Below the pieces are notes generated by a model that was given only the letters and a program-made list of their open reading frames with translations, searched no databases and had not been told where the DNA came from. The translations under genes were made by a program, and so were the position numbers. Below, piece by piece: positions 1 through 12,394 of a stretch of DNA of 20,308 bases. Source of the stretch: a virus; the IMG/VR virus record IMGVR_UViG_3300017717_000122, positions 1 through 20,308 of that record. The stretch is one strand, 5' to 3'. How positions within the stretch are numbered: the stretch's first letter is position 1; each line of letters begins with the position of its first letter.

Positions 1-3000
1 GGCACTACCACATTTGCTGAGTGGACATCTGCATTTCCAGATTTATTAACAGCCACAGATACAGTGAACAGTACGCAAAAAGCATTTAATGTGCCAGTAA
101 TAACTAGCGATGGTAAACACCCGCTTCGTGATTATTTCATACAAGACCTAGGTGATAGTGATGCTGATGAGTGGACATTATTAGGTTGGAGAGCAAATCA
201 AAATGGTGCTGGCGATACACCTGCTGTAGGTGATAGATATATTGCAAATGACGATCAGTTTAAACTTGAAATAACCGAGGCTTCTGCGGGTAGTCACTAT
301 ATTGCTGGCGATGATTCTTACGATGCAACTGGTGTGATTTCTGAAAACAATCCAACCATTAAGATGCGTACTGGTGATACATTTACAATTAACAATGCCT
401 TACATGCACAGCACCCTGTTGAGATTAGATTAGTTATAGAAAGCACTGAAGACGGTACTACTGGAGTTGCGGCAACAACAGGAGTTTCTGGTGCAGGTAC
501 TAATTCAGTATCGTTTACCCCGACCTCTGCAGGCACATATTATTATCAGTGTGAGAATCACGAAAATATGTATGGCGTAATTGAAGTATCCACTATAAGT
601 GGAACCGGTAAAGTTATTAATATTACTAATCTCATTAATCAAACCGGAACTATTTTTAACTTTGAATATAGTGGAACACCAATAACTGGCACAGGCTACT
701 GTGCTGATCATAGAAACATATATGCCGGAGATCCGGGCGATTCAACAACTCGTTATAGACACACTGGTGGTGGCTTGTTTGTAGACCCAGTAAGAGATGC
801 ATCAAACAATCCAATTAATACATTACCTAGTGGATTAACAAACACATCTTTCTTAGGTTTTCTTGATGGACACTATTTCCAACCAATTGATTGTCGATCT
901 ATTAGCCCGTATAACGCAACTTCGTCTTTTAGTATAACTGATGTCACTGACACAGAACTTGTAAGGCTTAATACCGATATTATTGGAGATCATTTTAAAG
1001 AAGTGTTGGAGTCGAGACTATCTTTTGATTCTACTAATGTCGATACTGCTAACAATAGACTTATAATTGAAAATCATCAACAAGCAGAAATAAAAAGTAA
1101 ACATCAATTTACCGATGGAAATAATGGTGTGCCTGGTACGATAGTTGGATTAGACACTGATGACTTTGCTTATGTAAAGGTAATAGATGAAGATACGCTT
1201 GAGTTATACGAAACCAGATCAGGTAACGGCACCACATCATCGCCATATGTTTACAGCGACCAAGTTACATTCAGTTCAGCAACTGGTGGTGGATTTCAGC
1301 TTTATGCACAACAACCGAGTGCAGTTGCGACAGAGTTCTATGATCAGATATACAATACAAGCGGTAATTTAGGTGTTGAAAATATCGACACAACTTATGA
1401 AGACGCCTTTTCAGAAGTAACATTTACGATAGGTTCTGTTTCTAGTATCTTAGAAGACAACCCCGGTATAAACTATCAGAATGATGTCGGCGTTAGAATA
1501 TTCAATGAGGTCATAGCGGGGTATGATTTAAAAGATTTGATTATTACATTCGATAACGCACCATTTACTTTACAGCCTAACGAGATAGTAACACAAACAA
1601 TAAGATCGCCATACGAAGGACCTGTTACTGACACTGAGGCTGATTATGTAAATGGTGTTTTAGTAGACCCAGACGAATCAATTGGCGCATTGTTCGATAG
1701 AAGTGTCGATGTAAATGGTTTAAAGATTGCTGTTGGTCGTTCACGAGATAAATTTGGTAACTTAATTGTAACTAACTCAAATTTCGTTATACCCGATGAG
1801 TTTTCTTTGAAAGTTGCTAAAGTTGCAGAACTTATGGTAGACCCAACTGCATCTGGAATCAATACGCAAGCACAGAGAAAAATGATCGGTGTTATTAGAG
1901 GTGACTATGGAACGCCTCATGCAGATAAGCAGACTGCTTTGCAAATAATCTACTCGTCACCCGATTCTTATTTCAGTGACTTTACTGAAACGACTGGTGA
2001 TGCGCCCGGTTTCGCTAATTACAATGGTTATGAAACTTTCTTAAATACTCATGCAGTTGAAGAATACCCGAATGGTTTTATTCGTTATCCATCTCAATCA
2101 ATTGGAGATAGACAAATCGAAGAAGTCTTGGGTTCTCTAATAAGAATAATGCATCTACATGCTATACCTGGGGTTATTGATGGAAGCGATTCTGCAATAA
2201 ACTTTGATCCAGTGGGTCTTAGTGAGCAATGGCAAACTACAGAACTATTCAAAGCAATGAAAGAAGCCATCGATGCAGATAAGTATATACCAACAGACGC
2301 AAATCTTGATCCATTAGGTAGTCCTGCTGATGCAAAAGTAGCACTAAAAGAGTATCTGTACTTTTTGAATTGGGGTATGTGGTCATTAAGTGAGTTCTGG
2401 GGTAGCAGTAAGACGGCAAATTGGACAGACGATATGCTAACTCCATCTGGAATAGAATCTAATAATCCATTGGGTTACGAATTGTTTAACAAATACATTA
2501 ATCCAATTCTAAGTAGACCCAACTTTATACAGCTTCGATCTATTTTCCAAGATAACAATGCGGGTGTTTCTGGATATATAAACACACCAGTTACTTCATA
2601 TCTGACTGCGAGTGAAGTACGAGACCTGCCAGCCTCTACACGACTCACAGTAGACTCGACATTCAACTACGAAGAAAGTGTCACATCATTCGAATTATTA
2701 GAAGAAAAGTATGATGTTAGAATGAAGTTCTTAAAGAGAGTGGGTACAGAGTTTTATTTCAGACCCGTTAGTTTCTTTGGTGTCGATCAGAATGCACCAA
2801 TAACGATTAGAGCAGAAGATAGAAAAATCTTAACAATCAGAAAAGATCAAGAGTCTTTACCTATGGGTGCAAACGCACAAGTATTAGGGGCGGCAGAATA
2901 TAGTACGGGTCAGGTTGAAGAGATTAAAGTCTTGCATACTGGGTATAAATATAAAGATGGAGAGATGGTTGATCTTGTTAATATAGAAGAAGACAGTCCA

Positions 3001-3459
3001 ACATATAATCAAGTAGTTGCTACAGCAAAGATTTCTGCTAATGGTCAAGGTAGTACTGAGGGTAGATGGAAAGACACAAGTTCTTTCTTAAACGAGTCTT
3101 CTGCTATAGTTCATGATAATAACTATTATCAAGAATACTCTTATGATATATCTACAATGATTGATCCAGAAATATTTACACCCTTAGTTAAAGATGTTGT
3201 TGGTGTAGCAGGTACAAAAATGTTTCATACGCCTTTGATAAATAGTGAGAACAGCTTTGAAAGTAATGTGGATGTTGATATTGTAACATTTGATGTTGTT
3301 CTAGAGCCATTTATTGCAGAGGGTACTGGTTTTGTTGGTGATCCTACAGGCTCATTGGAAGCAGGCCCAGAGGGTAGTGAAGTTGGCTTACTTGTTACAG
3401 AAACTACTGGAGAACAATTAATTTCTGTTTCGACAGAAGAAGATGAGACTATTGTATAA
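1..3459 (+). CDS. Giant baseplate/tail structural protein (T4 gene 7 position) with cupredoxin-like domain, 5' end missing
   Basis: The frame is open from base 1, so 1152 residues are visible and the true start lies upstream; the GTG at 64 is only an internal codon. Domains seen, numbered from base 1: a cupredoxin-like beta domain at about 85-200 (His138, Cys184, His187, Met190); beta-rich linkers at about 200-600; a compact Trp-rich, probably helical region at about 620-855; and a C-terminal domain containing NYYQEYSYDI from residue 1041, a closing signature I recall from several marine T4-like tail proteins. It sits just upstream of the gp8 homologue, with a YHYH gene between, which matches the T4 order 6-7-8, and T4 gp7 is also about 1030 residues long. 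I therefore infer a baseplate wedge component or decoration. Direct homology to gp7 is not evident by eye. Its stop overlaps the next start (TAATG). A tail structural role is fairly sure; gp7 identity is tentative. Confidence 0.8.
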   Translation, partial: GTTTFAEWTSAFPDLLTATDTVNSTQKAFNVPVITSDGKHPLRDYFIQDLGDSDADEWTLLGWRANQNGAGDTPAVGDRYIANDDQFKLEITEASAGSHYIAGDDSYDATGVISENNPTIKMRTGDTFTINNALHAQHPVEIRLVIESTEDGTTGVAATTGVSGAGTNSVSFTPTSAGTYYYQCENHENMYGVIEVSTISGTGKVINITNLINQTGTIFNFEYSGTPITGTGYCADHRNIYAGDPGDSTTRYRHTGGGLFVDPVRDASNNPINTLPSGLTNTSFLGFLDGHYFQPIDCRSISPYNATSSFSITDVTDTELVRLNTDIIGDHFKEVLESRLSFDSTNVDTANNRLIIENHQQAEIKSKHQFTDGNNGVPGTIVGLDTDDFAYVKVIDEDTLELYETRSGNGTTSSPYVYSDQVTFSSATGGGFQLYAQQPSAVATEFYDQIYNTSGNLGVENIDTTYEDAFSEVTFTIGSVSSILEDNPGINYQNDVGVRIFNEVIAGYDLKDLIITFDNAPFTLQPNEIVTQTIRSPYEGPVTDTEADYVNGVLVDPDESIGALFDRSVDVNGLKIAVGRSRDKFGNLIVTNSNFVIPDEFSLKVAKVAELMVDPTASGINTQAQRKMIGVIRGDYGTPHADKQTALQIIYSSPDSYFSDFTETTGDAPGFANYNGYETFLNTHAVEEYPNGFIRYPSQSIGDRQIEEVLGSLIRIMHLHAIPGVIDGSDSAINFDPVGLSEQWQTTELFKAMKEAIDADKYIPTDANLDPLGSPADAKVALKEYLYFLNWGMWSLSEFWGSSKTANWTDDMLTPSGIESNNPLGYELFNKYINPILSRPNFIQLRSIFQDNNAGVSGYINTPVTSYLTASEVRDLPASTRLTVDSTFNYEESVTSFELLEEKYDVRMKFLKRVGTEFYFRPVSFFGVDQNAPITIRAEDRKILTIRKDQESLPMGANAQVLGAAEYSTGQVEEIKVLHTGYKYKDGEMVDLVNIEEDSPTYNQVVATAKISANGQGSTEGRWKDTSSFLNESSAIVHDNNYYQEYSYDISTMIDPEIFTPLVKDVVGVAGTKMFHTPLINSENSFESNVDVDIVTFDVVLEPFIAEGTGFVGDPTGSLEAGPEGSEVGLLVTETTGEQLISVSTEEDETIV
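253..600 (+). other. Cupredoxin-like (type 1 copper) domain inside the first protein
   Basis: This region encodes a plastocyanin-like pattern: a GDTFTI strand and an asparagine pair, then HPVEI (His138, codon at 412), and about 45 residues later a strand TYYYQ leading into CENHENM (Cys184 at 550, His187 at 559, Met190 at 568) and a closing strand GVIEV. In type 1 copper proteins the ligands are an early His followed by Cys, His and Met on one loop; all four are present here. The loop is short (C-x2-H-x2-M; plastocyanin has x4 before Met). Copper binding is inferred, not shown. Confidence 0.75.
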
Positions 3460-4445
3460 TGAGTACTCTTAGAATTACTACAGATGGAGACCCATACCCC
3501 GCAAAGGCTGGCATTGGCAGTACATCTGGTGTGCCTGTAAATAATGGAGAAGCTAGAAATTTTTCAAATCAAAATGCGATCAAAGATCAAGTTGACGAAA
3601 ATGGCGCCCCGAAAGTATACAATATAGCATATCGTGGTGGTGGTGGAGGCTCTCTTAGAGATGGCGTGATTATAGCAGAGAGCCCAAACAAGCAAGAAAT
3701 CGCTAACAATGAAATGGTTGGTATAGCGTTAAATGGTGTTGCAATCTATTCGCCGTGTGTGTCACAAATTACTACTGATATTGTTTCTGGTGATACTGAA
3801 TCTTTCGCTGGGTTCAACTATAATCTACCAGAACTACAAGCATCAATCAGTGGTTTTGATGCTTGTGGTGGTTCTGTCGATGACGAAAATGGCGAATATA
3901 GATATAGAAGCGGGCGGTTCCTAGAAAACGGATTTGCAAATAATGAAAGGTTTTCAGATGCGAGTAAGTACTACGCAAGCAATCCATTTGGTGGTAGTGA
4001 CTTTACCAGAACTGGTAATGACCCAGACGATGCGACCGTAACTCCAGGTCATTCGAAAATAGTTGGGTGGGCTTTAGATGGATTCCCGATATACGGCCCG
4101 TTTGCATACTCTAACCCAGTAGACCCCACTTCTGATATAGTGATTATGAGAACTGGATATGAAGTATTAGAGAGTCGTATAGTGTCTCCTACTGCACCAG
4201 ACATCACTACATATCCTTTGGGTACATTTAAAGAAGACTGGGTTTATAATAACCAGAAAGCGAATAGAACATTGGATTTGTATAATGGTAGATTTTGCGT
4301 TACTCCAGAATTTAAAGACGGAACATATGCATATTTTTTAACATTTAGTGACGGGAGTACAAACCCGAGTAGTTTATCATCACCAAGAACTCCAGAATAC
4401 CCGTACATTATTGGTAGAAGCACTAGACAGCAAAGAACTAGATAA
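3459..4445 (+). CDS. YHYH-domain protein in the baseplate cassette
   Basis: The 328-residue protein has the hallmarks of the YHYH family (Pfam YHYH). These are GIALNGVAIYSP at residues 88-99, then His198 followed by GWALDGFPIYGPF at 203-215, then LYNGRFCVTPEFKDGTYAYF at 274-293, and YPYIIG near 314-319. The family is widespread in bacteria, often as secreted proteins of unknown biochemical function, and also occurs in marine T4-like phages. A glycine-rich run (five Gly from residue 60) separates the N-terminal part from the domain, perhaps as a flexible tether. No signal peptide is seen. The ATG at 3459 overlaps the upstream stop by one base (TAATG), which implies translational coupling to the large tail protein. 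Position between a gp7-like gene and gp8 suggests a virion component or tail accessory. Family assignment is firm; function is unknown. Confidence 0.88.
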   Translation: MSTLRITTDGDPYPAKAGIGSTSGVPVNNGEARNFSNQNAIKDQVDENGAPKVYNIAYRGGGGGSLRDGVIIAESPNKQEIANNEMVGIALNGVAIYSPCVSQITTDIVSGDTESFAGFNYNLPELQASISGFDACGGSVDDENGEYRYRSGRFLENGFANNERFSDASKYYASNPFGGSDFTRTGNDPDDATVTPGHSKIVGWALDGFPIYGPFAYSNPVDPTSDIVIMRTGYEVLESRIVSPTAPDITTYPLGTFKEDWVYNNQKANRTLDLYNGRFCVTPEFKDGTYAYFLTFSDGSTNPSSLSSPRTPEYPYIIGRSTRQQRTR

Positions 4446-4461
4446 AATTTGGAAATAATAA

Positions 4462-6420
4462 ATGGCAAAAATTATAACAGAAAATTTTAAGATAGAAACA
4501 ACGAACGAATTATATGGTAGTTTGAACGATCAAAACTATTATATAGTAGCGTCTACAACTTCTACAAAAGAAGAGTTTCAGTCTACACCCGCTATACAAA
4601 ACACGCAAGTCTCTAAGAGGGACTTTATGCGTAGGGTTGTATTCGGTAGAAAAATTAGTACCGATAACGCAAGATACATGTTTTTAGAAAGACCTTGGGT
4701 AAAGGGTACTGTTTATGATCAGTATGACGATACTAAAGATGTCGAAAATCTTAATATGTTTGTATCTGTTAGAGAAGAGGGTAGCGGTAACTACTTGATA
4801 TTTAAGTGTCTAGATAATAATAATGGCGCACAGTCTCAAGAGATAACTGGTACCGTTGACCCTAGCAACTATCAGATGGCTATTACTCAAGATGGTTATC
4901 GTTGGCAGTTTATGTTTAAAGTTTTGTTTTCTGAAGTATTAGATTTTAAAACTTCAGACAATCTACCATTACCTGTAATTTCAACTGGTAGTGGTGGCTA
5001 TGGTGATGAGAAGGTTGTTGCCGCCGCTGAAGAAAACATTTCGAATATCTTATTAACAAATACTACTACCAATCAGTTTAATCAATATCTATTTGGAGAA
5101 GCCACAAGTACAGCAAACGCATCTGATGTTATTATAATTGACCCAGATAGTGCATCTCGTAGCGCATTTAGAAACATAACAGTATCTGTAACAGCAAAAC
5201 CTGGTAGAACGATCTATTCTGCATTGGATGCATATAAAAATATGTATTTTAAGGCTGATGGAAAAATCTATGATGTTATTGCATCAGTATCTTCGCCTAC
5301 AACAAACCAAATCACCCTTAGAATAAAAACTAGAGACATATTTTCGGCGCAACAAGTTTGTCAGCTACTTATTAAAGTTGCTGTGTCTAATAGCACACTT
5401 TCTGGTAAAACAGCAAAAGCGTATTTAGTTCTTGATGAATTTGGTACAGCAAAAAAAGTTGATTTTGAAACCAGAGGTACTGAGTATAAATTTGCAACTG
5501 CTGAAGTAATATACCCTCCTCTATTAAAAACTTCTGCTTCTGTTTTAAGCAACCCGACAACACTTCGTGCAATTGTCTCCCCTAGAGGTGGGCATGGTTC
5601 AGACCCGATTTCAGAAATGGCTATGAGTAAACTCTCTATTAATACAAGTTTTGTGGGTGGAGCAGTAAACGCACCAAACAGCAACGAGTATTCTATTGTC
5701 GGGCTGATTAAAAATCCAACATTTAGCGATGGTGTTAATGCAGATTCTTTTGACAATAGAACAGTTATAAGAGTATCTGGTGATCACATAAACCCTGCAG
5801 GCAATGTTTTAAATGGGGAAGATAGCACTCACACTGTTAGCACACTATTGACTGGAAATGCGGGCGGTGTTAATGATTACATAGAGCAATACATTAAAAC
5901 TATAGACATACAACAAATTGTTGACGGTGTATCATATACTATAGTTGACCCCGGTAATATGAGTAGAAATGACTTCACTTCTATTGGTGCGCCAATTGAA
6001 AATATCGAGTCTGCACATGGATTTGTGTTTACTGCTAACATAGCCAATACTATTCTTGGTTCAGAAAAAACAGCATTAGTATCAACTGTTACAGATAAAG
6101 TAGATATTAACTCTGCAACATACGACTATTCTTTAGACATAATAACAGCAAGAATACACGAATTAGTATCTGATGGCTCAGATACTTTAATTAAAGTTGT
6201 TGATTATGACGGCGACTTTCAGCATAAATTCCAGAAAGGCATATTTTATGTTAAAGAAACCCCATCGTCTTCAGTCAGTATAAATAATAAAATAGCGGAA
6301 AGTATTACATATGGTCAGTATGAATCATATTCGGGCGATCTCTTACACTTTATAGATTTCACCCCTATACCAAGAGATCCTGGCAGAAACGAAACAGTAA
6401 AATTCACATTTGACTTTTAA
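4462..6420 (+). CDS. gp8: Baseplate wedge protein, T4 gp8-like
   Basis: The 652-residue protein resembles the gp8 wedge family of T4-like phages. Visible signatures are IFKCLDNNNG at about 113-122 followed by DGYRWQFMFKV at 144-154, matching the T4 gp8 pattern in which YRCLD is followed by DGYVWEYLFEI. Also present are PRGGHGSDP at 374-382, with VGLIKNPTF shortly after, and a C-terminal DLLHFIDFTPIPR plus a short final beta strand, like the 'GEILY-ENR-PI' ending I recall from marine phage homologues. T4 gp8 has 334 residues; this one is about twice as long, as is usual for cyanophage-type members. In T4, gp8 dimers join gp7, gp10 and others in the baseplate wedge. The ATG at 4462 follows GGAAA at 4451-4455, a weak ribosome site, 16 bases after the YHYH gene. 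Confidence 0.88.
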   Translation: MAKIITENFKIETTNELYGSLNDQNYYIVASTTSTKEEFQSTPAIQNTQVSKRDFMRRVVFGRKISTDNARYMFLERPWVKGTVYDQYDDTKDVENLNMFVSVREEGSGNYLIFKCLDNNNGAQSQEITGTVDPSNYQMAITQDGYRWQFMFKVLFSEVLDFKTSDNLPLPVISTGSGGYGDEKVVAAAEENISNILLTNTTTNQFNQYLFGEATSTANASDVIIIDPDSASRSAFRNITVSVTAKPGRTIYSALDAYKNMYFKADGKIYDVIASVSSPTTNQITLRIKTRDIFSAQQVCQLLIKVAVSNSTLSGKTAKAYLVLDEFGTAKKVDFETRGTEYKFATAEVIYPPLLKTSASVLSNPTTLRAIVSPRGGHGSDPISEMAMSKLSINTSFVGGAVNAPNSNEYSIVGLIKNPTFSDGVNADSFDNRTVIRVSGDHINPAGNVLNGEDSTHTVSTLLTGNAGGVNDYIEQYIKTIDIQQIVDGVSYTIVDPGNMSRNDFTSIGAPIENIESAHGFVFTANIANTILGSEKTALVSTVTDKVDINSATYDYSLDIITARIHELVSDGSDTLIKVVDYDGDFQHKFQKGIFYVKETPSSSVSINNKIAESITYGQYESYSGDLLHFIDFTPIPRDPGRNETVKFTFDF

Positions 6421-6436: not shown

Positions 6437-9400
6437 ATGGGTATCAACAAAGATTTAAATGTAGATCCGTACTACGATGACTTCGATGAATCAAAACAGT
6501 TTAATAGGGTTTTGTTTAAACCTGCTAGGGCTGTGCAAGCGAGAGAGTTGACTCAACTTCAAACTATTCTACAAAAGCAGGTAGAACGGTTTGGGTCAAA
6601 TGTGTATAAAGAAGGTACAATTATAAGTGGTATCAATCTGACAACACGAGACGATATCAACTATGTTAAGCTAGATGATCAGGTGGGGTTTGATGACCCA
6701 TCTCTTTTTAACGAAATTACTGATGAAGATGGTAGAACAAAAAGATATAAACTAGTCGGTAGGGATACTGGTCTAGAAGCAGAAATCATTTTAGGTTTAG
6801 GTGGGTTTGAAACACAGGCGCCAAATCTAAAAACATTCTTTATTAATTATCTTAAAAGTCAAATCCAAACTTCTGATTCTAATCTCGATATTAAAGAATT
6901 TGGTAGTGGTGAAAAACTAGAGATAAGAGACTGGAATGACAATCCAGTGAGTGTTGGTGGAGCAGGCACAACAGTTACTGTGAATGGTGGTGGAGCAGGC
7001 ACTGATCATGTGGGTAAATCTTTTGGTATTTCTTGTGAAGAGGGCGTAATCTATCAAAAGGGTCATTTCATTTTTGTCGAAAAGCAATTTATTATTGTTA
7101 CTCGATATAGTAATGTGGCAGGTCAATCAGCAACAGATTCAAATATAATCAATCCAATCTCTGTAGGTTTCACTATTGAAGAGAATGTTGTTGATTCTAA
7201 TCAAGACTCTAGTCTACTTGATAATGCTTCTGGTTTTAATAATCACCAAGCGCCTGGTGCAGACAGACTTCAATTAGTTCCTAAATTGGTTTCATATGAC
7301 AGCGATACCGCCCCAGACGAATTCTTTACTTTGATTAGATTTAGTGAGGGTAACCCAACCAGAGTTAGAGACTTTACTGAGTTTAGTACTCTAGGTGATG
7401 AGTTAGCCAGAAGAACATATGAAGAGTCTGGAAACTATGTCGTTGAGGGGTTAGACTCTGTACTACAAAAAGAAGATGGTCAAGTAGAAGTTAATGTTTC
7501 ACCAGGTAAGGCTTATATTTATGGCAGAGAAGTCAGAAATGTAGCAAATACTCTTATAGATATCGACCCAGTTATTACTACCCAGTCTAACACAGACCAA
7601 AAAACATCATTTAGTTATGGTCAGTACATTAGGGTTGCATATAGTGGTAGTAACGATTCTAACTTTATTGATTTAAATTTTGATAAGACCGCCGCTGGTT
7701 CTCATCAGAGTTATGTTCTTCTGGGTAATAGTGGTGCGACCAAAATAGGCACATGCAATATTATAAGTGCTAGGCCAGATGTATCCACCGGGAACAATGA
7801 ACTTAGACTTTTTGTATTTAATATAGTCAAGGTTCCGGTTCAAGCTGATGAGAACCTCACACACATAGCATTAAATACGACAAACCCAGCTAACTTTGAC
7901 CCAGCAACGGCAACTAAAGTAGCGGTGATTCAAGAAGATGGTCAGGGTAGAATCTATGGCTCTAATCACTCTACTCTTATTTTCGATACTGGTAAGAATG
8001 GTCTTTCGTCTATCTCTGATACAGACTTGGTTCAAATTAGGCAGACTACTGCCACAGCAAATAGTTCAGGTGTATGTCGAATTCCACCAACAATTGATGG
8101 TCAGCCTATTGCCCAAAGTGCTTACACAATTGCAATTAAAGACAATGGTGGAGGCAATGCTCCAACACTACACCGAGTTACTAATGTAACTAACTATGTA
8201 CCCACTGAAAACAATGATAATGGATTTAATGGAATCGATGTTACTCTTTCTGGCACAAGTGCCGAAGATGGCAACACATTTAGGATAATTTATCCGTTTT
8301 CGTTGACTAGAGATGTGCATCAAGATACTTTGGAAGAAAAAAGTTCTCGTTATGTTCAGTCAACTGTTAGTGGTGGCATCGTTCAACTGGGTGTCGCTAA
8401 TGTTGTTAAGCTAGAAGCAGTATACTTGATAGATGGCGCATTCGATCAATCAGATAATTCGAATCAAAGTGATGTAACATCAGACTTCGTACTTGTAAAC
8501 AATCAAAAAGATAATGTGTATGATTACTCTTATCTTAGACAAAAGAATAAGAGTCCTATTACCTCAGGCAGTAGTCTCCTAGTCAAGTACACTCATTTAG
8601 CACGAGATAATACAAATGGAAATGGTTATTTAACAGTAAATAGCTATCAAAACATTTCTACTACATTAAAACAAATTTTACCAGAGTATACAGGTAAAGA
8701 CTTAAAATCGTATAATCTTTTTGAGTCTATAGATGCACGACCATATGTTCGTGATATGGTTACTCCAAGTCAATCTCTGTCGAATGCACAAACAGTTAGT
8801 AGTTCCGTTATAGATAACAAAGCCGACTTAGTTAGCGGTGGAAATTTACACTTGTTTGAAGAATCGCAAATTGCGTCATCGACATTTAGCTACTTCTTAT
8901 CTAGAATAGATTCTGTTGTTTTAGATGAATATGGCAATACGCTATTAATTAAGGGTGGTGAAGCTGAAAGCCCAGTGCCACCAAAATTAGACAGACAATA
9001 TGCTCTTGCAGATATTCTGATACCGGGTGGCTCAAACGAAATAAACGGCGACAATAGAATTAGAATAGAAGAGCGATCCAATAAAAACTACACAATGTTA
9101 GACATTGAACAACTTGAAGATAGACTGGATGACTTAACTGATATGGTTACTCTGTCAATGGCGGAAAGAGACATACAGAGTTTAATAATAACAGACACTG
9201 ACGGAACAGAAAGATTTAAAAATGGTATTCTTGCAGACACATTTAAAGACTTAACTGGCGCAGACTTTACTGACCCAGAGTTCAATGCGTCTATTGATAA
9301 GTCTAAGTTTGTTGCACAGCCTGCTATTAAAGAGTTCCCTCTTGATCTGAAGATTGATTTTAGTAACACAGATAATGTTTCTGAAGATTTTGAAGAGTTA

Positions 9401-12394
9401 ACAACACTATCATTTAATAGTGTAAAGAAAACAATCATAAATCAGCCATATGCAACAAATGTGCGAAACTGCGTGTCTAACTATTATAGTTATCAAGGTA
9501 GGGCATTTATACATCCTAAGTTTGTTTTCCATCGTGATGTTATAAAAAATCCTGTAGTTCATTTACAGACTGACATTGCTTCTAGTGTTCTGAATGCGGT
9601 TAAAAATATTCAGAAGTTTATCCCCCTGACTCGTACTACTAGAGGTAGACGAAGACAGACTGCTTCTTGGATTGATCGTGTACGCCGAATTAGAGGCGCA
9701 CCAACTAGAGTTACAAACTTTGTCCAAAATATATCTACGACAAAACTGACTACTAAGATCAAAACACAAACTCAGCCTTTGGGCAACTTCATAACAGACT
9801 TTAGTATGAAGCCCTATCTAAAACAGCATGTAATCAGAATTGCTGTTAGTGGATTAAGACCAAACACTGTACATCACTTTTTCTTTGGTGGTAAAAATGT
9901 AGATGCTCATGTGAGGCAGTTTAGATATCCGTGGTACAGATTATATAGCAGATATTACAGAAGATATCATCGAAATGGTAGAATGCGTAGCAAAAGACAT
10001 AGAATGGCTAGATATTTACCATATAGAAACTGGGCTGATTGGTACTTTGGGAGAAGAAGAGGTCGAAGAGGAAGATATGCTTACAGTACGACAACTGTTC
10101 GTACAGACAGTAGAGGCAACTTGCTTGCATTCTTCAGAGTGCCGGCAGGTAAATTCTTTGTTGGACAAAACAAGTTAAAAATATCTGATGTGTCTCAATA
10201 TAGTTCTATTGAGTCTGGTGGTACTTCTTACGCTTGTCAAACTCACAGAGGGTATAACTTCTCTATCAGTAAGACTCAAATTAATAATACAACAAGAACT
10301 GTAGACTTTGACACCAGTACGACAGTTGTAAAAAGAGAGTTCCAAAGAAGAAGAAGAGACCCGATTGCACAAACATTTAAGATGAGGGCGGCTGATACTG
10401 GTAATGCCAACTTTGGTTATGTAAGCGACATTGATGTTTACTTTAGAAGAAAAGCGACCAATCAAGGCGTAACTCTACAGATAAGAGAGGCTCAAAATGG
10501 GTATCCAACATCTACGGTGTTACCAGAAGCAGAAGTGTATTTAGACCCGTCAGATGTTAGTGTCTCTACTTTGGGTACTGTACCCACTAAGTTTGAGTTT
10601 GATAATCCAATCAAACTGAAAGCAGATGTGGAGTATTGCTTTGTTATTATTCCAGATGGTAACTCGCCAGAGTATTTGATATACACATCCAAAGTCGGTA
10701 ATCGCAGCCTTTCGAAGGGTAACACAGCAAGGTCTGTTTCTGTTACTAACGACTGGGGTGATGGTGTATTATTTACTTCTACCAACGACAGTACTTGGAA
10801 GTCTTATCAAGACGAAGATTTGAAGTTTAGCATTAACAGATATAGCTTCAATACAACTGGTTTTGCTGATCTCGTTCCTAACGATGTAGAGTTTTTAACT
10901 ATTCGAGACAATAAAAAACTAACGAAAACAGATGGTACTGTAGGCCCAGAACTAATAAACTTTGAAGATGACGAGTCTGTATATGTTCTGAAAGATTGTA
11001 GCTTTAATGGTGAAGTTGGAGCAGATGGTGATTTAGATTCACCAGAAGTTATTACTGTTTCAAATAGTCAGTTAGCCTCTTTGACTGCTACTGGAAAAGG
11101 GTCTTTTAATGTTGGCGATTATATCATTATTCAAGAGATACAGGAAGATGATGCTACCGATGCTCCAAATAGAGTTCTTTCTCGAATAGAATCAATCGAC
11201 AATACGACCTATGCAGACAACAATGAAACTGCTTTTAATGTAGACACGCCATACTATGAAATTGATGGTACAGAGACAGTTAGCGTAACTTTGGTTACTT
11301 CCGCTAAAGTGGAGTACTATGATCCAGAAAACCCAAGTACATTACATCTAACAGAAAGTTCTGCCAGAAGAGAGAACTATTTTAATGATAACCCAGTACA
11401 TGGCTTTGGTGAATTTGAAGTAGGCACACTTTATCAGATCGTAACATTAGGTAATGGAACCCCTTCAGAAAATACTCTTAGTTGGAGAAGCGTCAGTGGT
11501 AACACTGGGTTACAGCCTGTTGTTGGAACTCAATTTACGGCGGTACGATCACAATCTCTAGAAGACTTTAACAACACCGGAGGCACGGCAAGACCACTTA
11601 CTCAGGTTCTTATAGGCGCTAAAACTGGAGCAGAAGCAACCATTACTTCTTTAGATACTCAGGGTATCTCATATTTTCAACCACAGGTACAGGTTGACAA
11701 TACACCGAAAACATCTTCTAAAGTAGATTTATATCAAAAGGTTGCTGGCGAACTTGTAGTAGATAAACCCATTACAGAAAATGATGACATTTATGTTACG
11801 GGTAACCCCAGAGTTATTGTGAGCAAAAGTAAACAAATAGAGAATGCGCCAGGGCAAGATGGAGATATTGTCGATGACTTTAGATTTAGGGTCACACTAG
11901 ACAATGGTGGATTTGATGCAGTAAGTCCATCTTTAGATGATGACATGAGTAATCTGAATGTTTATGAGTTTGAAATTAACAATAGTATTTCATCGCCTGA
12001 CTGTAATTACATCTCTAAAGAAGTTATACTTAACCCCGACATGCCTGCAGAGGGCCTTAAAGTTCTTCTTGAGGCGTACAGACCAATGGGCACAGCAATA
12101 GAAGTTTATGCTAGATTTGTTAAGAAAAATAATCTTGAAGAGAAGACTAATTGGATTGCACTCAACAATAAAAATTCCTTCCAATTCTCATCTGCAAGTA
12201 ATGTAGAAGACTATAGAACATTTGAGTTTGATCTTGATGAAAGTGGCGAAACTGCATACTATGCTTTCCAGATTAAGATTAGCATGAGACATATGCAGAC
12301 GGGTGAGTTAGACAACCCGGCCTTTTCTGGTATTGTGCCGAGCGCAAGTTTGTTCCCAACGATCTCTAGCTATAGAGCAGTGGCGGTAACATAA
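6437..12394 (+). CDS. Very large DUF4815-type virion structural protein (baseplate/tail fibre)
   Basis: At 1985 residues this is the largest gene here. The N-terminus (PYYDDFDESKQFNRVLFKP, then ARELTQLQTILQ and ERFG) is the signature of the DUF4815 family, known from marine T4-like phage tail proteins. In order: DUF4815 region at about 1-400; beta-rich middle; short coiled coil with IEQLEDRLDDLTDMV near 890-905, followed by a DTDGTERFKNG motif; GLRPNTVHHFFFGGKNV at about 1137-1153; an Arg/Tyr-rich insert at 1160-1216; a carbohydrate-module-like beta domain starting at DPIAQTF (1308); a TLYQIVTLGN module near 1662; and a conserved end with LLEAYRPMGT and ISSYRAVAV. A role as a gp9/gp10-type baseplate or fibre-connecting protein is inferred from its place after gp8. 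It starts at ATG 6437 behind AAGGAAAGAG. Its stop overlaps the next start (TAATG). Confidence 0.87.
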   Translation: MGINKDLNVDPYYDDFDESKQFNRVLFKPARAVQARELTQLQTILQKQVERFGSNVYKEGTIISGINLTTRDDINYVKLDDQVGFDDPSLFNEITDEDGRTKRYKLVGRDTGLEAEIILGLGGFETQAPNLKTFFINYLKSQIQTSDSNLDIKEFGSGEKLEIRDWNDNPVSVGGAGTTVTVNGGGAGTDHVGKSFGISCEEGVIYQKGHFIFVEKQFIIVTRYSNVAGQSATDSNIINPISVGFTIEENVVDSNQDSSLLDNASGFNNHQAPGADRLQLVPKLVSYDSDTAPDEFFTLIRFSEGNPTRVRDFTEFSTLGDELARRTYEESGNYVVEGLDSVLQKEDGQVEVNVSPGKAYIYGREVRNVANTLIDIDPVITTQSNTDQKTSFSYGQYIRVAYSGSNDSNFIDLNFDKTAAGSHQSYVLLGNSGATKIGTCNIISARPDVSTGNNELRLFVFNIVKVPVQADENLTHIALNTTNPANFDPATATKVAVIQEDGQGRIYGSNHSTLIFDTGKNGLSSISDTDLVQIRQTTATANSSGVCRIPPTIDGQPIAQSAYTIAIKDNGGGNAPTLHRVTNVTNYVPTENNDNGFNGIDVTLSGTSAEDGNTFRIIYPFSLTRDVHQDTLEEKSSRYVQSTVSGGIVQLGVANVVKLEAVYLIDGAFDQSDNSNQSDVTSDFVLVNNQKDNVYDYSYLRQKNKSPITSGSSLLVKYTHLARDNTNGNGYLTVNSYQNISTTLKQILPEYTGKDLKSYNLFESIDARPYVRDMVTPSQSLSNAQTVSSSVIDNKADLVSGGNLHLFEESQIASSTFSYFLSRIDSVVLDEYGNTLLIKGGEAESPVPPKLDRQYALADILIPGGSNEINGDNRIRIEERSNKNYTMLDIEQLEDRLDDLTDMVTLSMAERDIQSLIITDTDGTERFKNGILADTFKDLTGADFTDPEFNASIDKSKFVAQPAIKEFPLDLKIDFSNTDNVSEDFEELTTLSFNSVKKTIINQPYATNVRNCVSNYYSYQGRAFIHPKFVFHRDVIKNPVVHLQTDIASSVLNAVKNIQKFIPLTRTTRGRRRQTASWIDRVRRIRGAPTRVTNFVQNISTTKLTTKIKTQTQPLGNFITDFSMKPYLKQHVIRIAVSGLRPNTVHHFFFGGKNVDAHVRQFRYPWYRLYSRYYRRYHRNGRMRSKRHRMARYLPYRNWADWYFGRRRGRRGRYAYSTTTVRTDSRGNLLAFFRVPAGKFFVGQNKLKISDVSQYSSIESGGTSYACQTHRGYNFSISKTQINNTTRTVDFDTSTTVVKREFQRRRRDPIAQTFKMRAADTGNANFGYVSDIDVYFRRKATNQGVTLQIREAQNGYPTSTVLPEAEVYLDPSDVSVSTLGTVPTKFEFDNPIKLKADVEYCFVIIPDGNSPEYLIYTSKVGNRSLSKGNTARSVSVTNDWGDGVLFTSTNDSTWKSYQDEDLKFSINRYSFNTTGFADLVPNDVEFLTIRDNKKLTKTDGTVGPELINFEDDESVYVLKDCSFNGEVGADGDLDSPEVITVSNSQLASLTATGKGSFNVGDYIIIQEIQEDDATDAPNRVLSRIESIDNTTYADNNETAFNVDTPYYEIDGTETVSVTLVTSAKVEYYDPENPSTLHLTESSARRENYFNDNPVHGFGEFEVGTLYQIVTLGNGTPSENTLSWRSVSGNTGLQPVVGTQFTAVRSQSLEDFNNTGGTARPLTQVLIGAKTGAEATITSLDTQGISYFQPQVQVDNTPKTSSKVDLYQKVAGELVVDKPITENDDIYVTGNPRVIVSKSKQIENAPGQDGDIVDDFRFRVTLDNGGFDAVSPSLDDDMSNLNVYEFEINNSISSPDCNYISKEVILNPDMPAEGLKVLLEAYRPMGTAIEVYARFVKKNNLEEKTNWIALNNKNSFQFSSASNVEDYRTFEFDLDESGETAYYAFQIKISMRHMQTGELDNPAFSGIVPSASLFPTISSYRAVAVT
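6956..7002 (+). repeat. Short in-frame direct repeat
   Basis: The 14-base unit GGTGGAGCAGGCAC occurs at 6956-6969 and again at 6989-7002. The offset is exactly 33 bases (11 codons), so both copies encode Gly-Gly-Ala-Gly-Thr in the same frame of the large structural protein. It looks like a small duplication in a glycine-rich surface loop. Confidence 0.7.
9914..10084 (+). other. Arg/Tyr-rich basic insert in the DUF4815-type protein
   Basis: Residues 1160-1216 of the large protein contain 19 Arg, 11 Tyr and 3 Trp in 57 positions, with one Asp and no Glu. Runs such as SRYYRRYHR, RSKRHRMAR and RRRGRRGR occur. The segment lies between GGKNVDAHV and TDSRGNLLAFFRVP, two motifs that in relatives I recall are joined by a short linker. 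The reading frame is intact on both sides, so it is not a frameshift artefact. Confidence 0.8.

Follow-up and report, generated by a model that had tools for sequence, protein, structure and literature searches.

An Arg/Tyr-rich insert in a charge-inverted Ig-like domain of a DUF4815 baseplate protein from one phage lineage

The DUF4815 gene and its surroundings

The window, as we call the whole stretch of 20,308 nucleotides of viral DNA analysed here, contains a gene for a large baseplate protein. The protein belongs to the DUF4815 family, with a Pfam score of 177.8 bits against a curated cut-off of 30. Proteins of this family (PHROG 358) are named VrlC or VriC in cultured phages. The gene order was gp6-like protein, large acidic wedge protein, YHYH protein, gp8-like protein, DUF4815 protein, small protein, collar/Gp10_C protein and fibres. 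With the gp8-like gene (4462-6420) directly upstream and collar and fibre genes downstream, the DUF4815 gene occupies the position of VrlC in marine T4-like phages. The features discussed below are:

6437-12394, + strand: DUF4815 (VrlC/VriC-type) baseplate protein, 1985 aa (Pfam PF16075, E-value 3.7e-52; PHROG 358, 2.6e-251; fold match to phi812, Z 23)
9488-10306, + strand: Ig-like domain, residues 1018-1290, charge-inverted, net charge +43 here; AlphaFold core pLDDT mostly 80-95
9578-9619, + strand: predicted helix, residues 1048-1061, with conserved acidic residues lost
9632-9748, + strand: upstream loop, residues 1066-1104, Arg-rich here, 13-30% identity within the lineage
9914-10084, + strand: Arg/Tyr/Trp-rich insert, residues 1160-1216, 57 codons
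9932-9973, + strand: helix within the insert, residues 1166-1179, WYRLYSRYYRRYHR, predicted by both AlphaFold runs at low confidence
10010-10069, + strand: second of the insert's conserved motifs, residues 1192-1211, roughly YLPYRNWADWYFGRRRGRRG; YLP.RNWAD and G.RRRGR-type columns invariant in three lineage members
10937-11536, + strand: acidified region, residues 1501-1700, a candidate docking surface according to block charges

In marine myophages, VrlC has been described as a replacement for T4 gp7 and an integral component of the double-layered baseplate (PMC7029224). For Ackermannviridae, VriC has been suggested as the possible prongs below the baseplate, facing the cell (review, PMC11721090). 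A literature search found no paper treating DUF4815 in baseplates under that name. The baseplate operon also encodes a YHYH-domain protein (3459-4445; PF14240, 1.5e-30), and such a protein has been reported from the baseplate operon of pelagimyophages (PMC7029224).

The only solved relative found was the DUF4815 protein of Staphylococcus phage phi812 (ORF65; sequence match 3.4e-35), which also topped the fold search. Over the Ig-like and the following domains, Z scores to 9EUF, the baseplate before contraction, and to 9EUI and 9EUJ, the state after contraction, were 22.7-23.3, compared with 13.1 for the next unrelated structure; the insert was not covered by this match. The phi812 protein has the same Ig-like segment (VKGLNPN...FDGV...TDAKG), but its loop (ITPATGYRKGSEDGTIM) is short, with ~19 aa, and has no marked basic character. 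By domain region, the closest cultured relatives were the VrlC proteins of the Sinorhizobium phages phiM7, phiM12, phiM19 and phiN3 (~31% identity). In phage phiM19, the genes are arranged similarly (wedge, wedge, VrlC, small protein, fibre), and the Sinorhizobium loop, VTNRVNPAIGNTLNGLHRLNRTNVVK, differs in being short and weakly basic.

The insert and the lineage that carries it

The insert lies in the open frame of 6437-12394, between GGKNV and TDSRGNLL. A recount of its composition (19 Arg, 1 Lys, 11 Tyr, 3 Trp and 1 Asp, net charge +19) agreed with an earlier note on this DNA and added the Lys. In all three phages with the insert, it was the most basic 57-aa window across 30-50 kb of structural genes (+17 to +19, runner-up +10). 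Two contigs (L001 and L002) matched the window at 99.9%, with no differences within the insert. Two divergent phages (L105 and L109) carry a homologous insert in an intact frame, 59-71% identical within the lineage, compared with 56-57% for the whole protein. The presence of the same insert in the near-identical contigs and in the divergent phages excludes an assembly error, and the intact frame described on both sides of the insert was recovered in all four. We refer to these five sequences, a small group among marine T4-like phages, as the lineage, which has three independent members.

The tree, built from 53 relatives, joined the window with L105 and L109 in one monophyletic group (SH-aLRT 100). 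The insert was confined to this group, which supports the lineage specificity raised as a question in the earlier note. The outcome that would have spoken for an ordinary core element, a segment fixed in all homologues, was not observed, as only one lineage of the 53 rows has the segment.

Near the end of the gene, at 12296-12304, three adjacent codons (residues 1954-1956, QTG vs APN) differ from L001 and L002, while the remaining 20 kb are 99.9% identical.

AlphaFold placed the insert in a long loop of the Ig-like beta-sandwich, with a loop pLDDT of about 44-66. In addition to the helix listed above, both runs predicted a short helix around NWADWY, with low confidence. Every relative has a loop at this site, between FFDGxDVxAHV and TDxxGxL. 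The median length among 81 distinct loops was 38 aa, and the loops of the window, L105 and L109 had 73-74 residues, a net gain of ~35 over the median. The charge of the lineage loops was +17 to +20 (window: 74 aa, +20), compared with -6 to +8, and one at +11, outside the lineage. The site between the two flanks had been correctly described, but the "short linker" ascribed to relatives is a loop of ~29-60 aa, measured from the end of the strand as far as the TD motif.

Pairwise alignment scores of the lineage inserts exceeded those of composition-preserving shuffles by z 10.8-17.8. Three motifs were fixed: VRQFRYxW, YLPxRNWAD (YLPYRNWAD here) and GRRRGR. In the centre of the insert, the sequence drifts and the Arg-richness stays, as anticipated in the earlier note; both ends, on the other hand, are fixed in sequence. 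The fixed motifs and the level of identity make a random low-complexity stretch unlikely, and likewise a fast-evolving host-range or recognition loop.

Searches beyond the lineage returned no further homologues. The loop region alone had no tblastn match in cultured phages, and a pattern for the loop start had none in bacterial and archaeal genomes. A profile of the insert retrieved from IMG/VR only contigs already known, comparison with the PDB and PHROG gave no meaningful match, and no homologous module binding lipopolysaccharide (LPS) or acidic glycans was found. Sister marine lineages (L004/L005/L051, L006, L108 and L111) have the same protein and domain, with a partly Arg-rich loop of ~+4 to +11 where measured, but they lack the VRQFRYxW and YLPYRNWAD motifs. 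Without the loops, their domain core is still at 0 to -7 (L004, L162/L163 from the L005/L051 contigs, L006 and L111). These mildly basic loops suggest intermediate steps towards the insert.

Charge inversion of the domain and acidification of the rest

The insert is part of a larger change, in which the whole Ig-like domain is charge-inverted. The net charge of the domain was +31 to +43 in the lineage and -20 to +10 in relatives; with both loops removed, the values were +9 to +16 and -17 to 0. Conserved acidic columns were lost at 10 of 17 positions in the domain, compared with 9 of 94 elsewhere (hypergeometric P 1.9e-5), and each of eight comparison groups had lost 0-3 of them in the domain. 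For example, the predicted helix at residues 1048-1061 reads LNAVKNIQKF here and LDLVDNIQEF in relatives. Across the columns shared with relatives, a strong positive shift occurred only at residues ~1021-1260.

As the rest of the protein has turned more acidic, the overall charge did not change (-2.7 to -3.4 per 100 residues in the lineage vs -3.0, sd 0.7, in relatives). Outside the domain, the lineage proteins were at -5.7 to -6.0, below every relative compared. In independent contrasts, domain charge correlated with that of the rest at r -0.55 (p 0.0004), and at r -0.41 (p 0.017) with the lineage left out; equal-length control segments outside the domain reached -0.37 at most. In exploratory charge-block tests, uncorrected for the number of blocks and based on three independent lineage members, residues 1501-1600 had charges of -17, -17 and -17 (relatives -5.2, sd 3.6) and residues 1601-1700 had -9, -13 and -8 (relatives -0.5, sd 4.5). 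Identity within the lineage was just 34-38% at residues 1501-1600. A second acidified part comprised residues 801-1000. Among the neighbouring proteins, no compensating local acidic shift was found in the gp6, gp8, YHYH, collar and fibre proteins, the second fibre protein being compared with one relative only.

Possible roles of the insert

Together, the conserved arm, the inverted domain and the acidified rest suggest a lineage-specific electrostatic clamp. In this lineage, the Ig-like domain has switched from acidic to strongly basic, and one of its loops has grown into an arm rich in Arg, Tyr and Trp. The arm could grip the acidified surface through salt bridges and cation-pi or stacking contacts, with residues 1501-1700 as the best candidate surface. 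Docking could occur in cis, on the same chain, or onto a neighbouring copy within the baseplate, and it would stabilise the assembled baseplate. We infer that the two surfaces touch and that their contact serves assembly or stability.

Our tentative reading is that the insert serves this lineage as an Arg/Tyr docking arm, by which the Ig-like domain is clamped to an acidified surface on that same protein; we give this somewhat less than an even chance. Several observations argue for it: the insert is conserved at or above the protein average within a group of maximal support, the compensation lies in the same protein, the virion proteins compared from neighbouring genes have not shifted locally towards acidity, and VrlC is described as integral to the baseplate (PMC7029224). 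The low pLDDT of the insert speaks against it. The compensation could also reflect a protein-wide constraint on net charge or solubility, with no physical contact involved. The earlier note had listed LPS or acidic glycans, nucleic acid and an acidic baseplate partner as candidate ligands. Of these, the acidic partner is favoured, with charge compensation pointing to the same protein, while nothing in support of nucleic acid was found.

The main rival is binding to the host. An exposed basic face might bind a conserved polyanion of the host (LPS core or lipid A phosphates, or an acidic capsule) and thereby aid adsorption or triggering. The composition of the insert fits polyanion binding, the neighbouring virion proteins that were compared carry no offsetting acidic shift, and the suggested prong position of VriC would turn the protein towards the cell (PMC11721090). 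We take this role as a serious alternative, though less likely than the clamp; against it, the insert is conserved rather than fast evolving and the compensation sits inside the same protein. Next in rank, and less probable again, is an arrangement in which the basic domain would dock onto the acidic wedge protein from the large gene upstream (window 1-3459). This protein has a net charge of -128 to -151 in the lineage, to which lineage-specific extra segments contribute a sum of -48 to -62, and its charge density tends to anticorrelate with domain charge (rho -0.82, p 0.09, five points only). However, its shared columns show no localised acidic shift, and per residue it is only slightly more acidic than relatives, with one of the three lineage members within their spread.

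Two explanations that give the insert no binding partner are unlikely. A neutral or near-neutral expansion of low-complexity AGA codons in a tolerant loop would account for the codon usage (15 of the 19 Arg codons are AGA) and for the mildly Arg-rich loops of sister lineages. It fits poorly with fixed motifs, with an identity that equals or exceeds the protein average despite deep divergence and with the altered charge in the remainder of the domain; moreover, no significant tandem or direct repeats were found within the insert. We therefore give it little credence. Even less credible is a constraint from a gene that overlaps the region in the +1 frame. In each of the three lineage members, that frame (9975-10178) runs without a stop through most of the insert, where synonymous change is somewhat low (8-9 observed vs 11.5-14.0 expected, P 0.05-0.12). 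The signal is marginal, however, the +1 start and the upstream stops are not common to the lineage members, and AGA-rich codons read as GAN in the +1 frame, which by itself leaves few stops.

A broader version of the clamp reading is that a baseplate interface was rebuilt in one lineage, with one domain charge-inverted, another domain of that protein compensating, a new Arg/Tyr/Trp arm as the clamp and the total charge kept constant. We regard this as possible but rather doubtful. If true, it would be a natural experiment in swapping charges within a contractile-tail baseplate, and it would point to the surfaces at which the widespread, poorly understood DUF4815/VrlC protein makes contact with itself. 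It would also be a case in which selection has kept a large, newly acquired Arg/Tyr arm in a structural protein, and not in a variable receptor-binding loop.

The upstream wedge protein has further features of its own. Its segment 349-588 is plastocyanin/azurin-like, with possible copper ligands (HPVEI...YYYQCENHENMYG); the Pfam Copper-bind match (E-value 0.0068) is below the cut-off. The protein is ~300-600 residues longer than most relatives compared, and an extra segment of 151 residues is common to all three lineage members.
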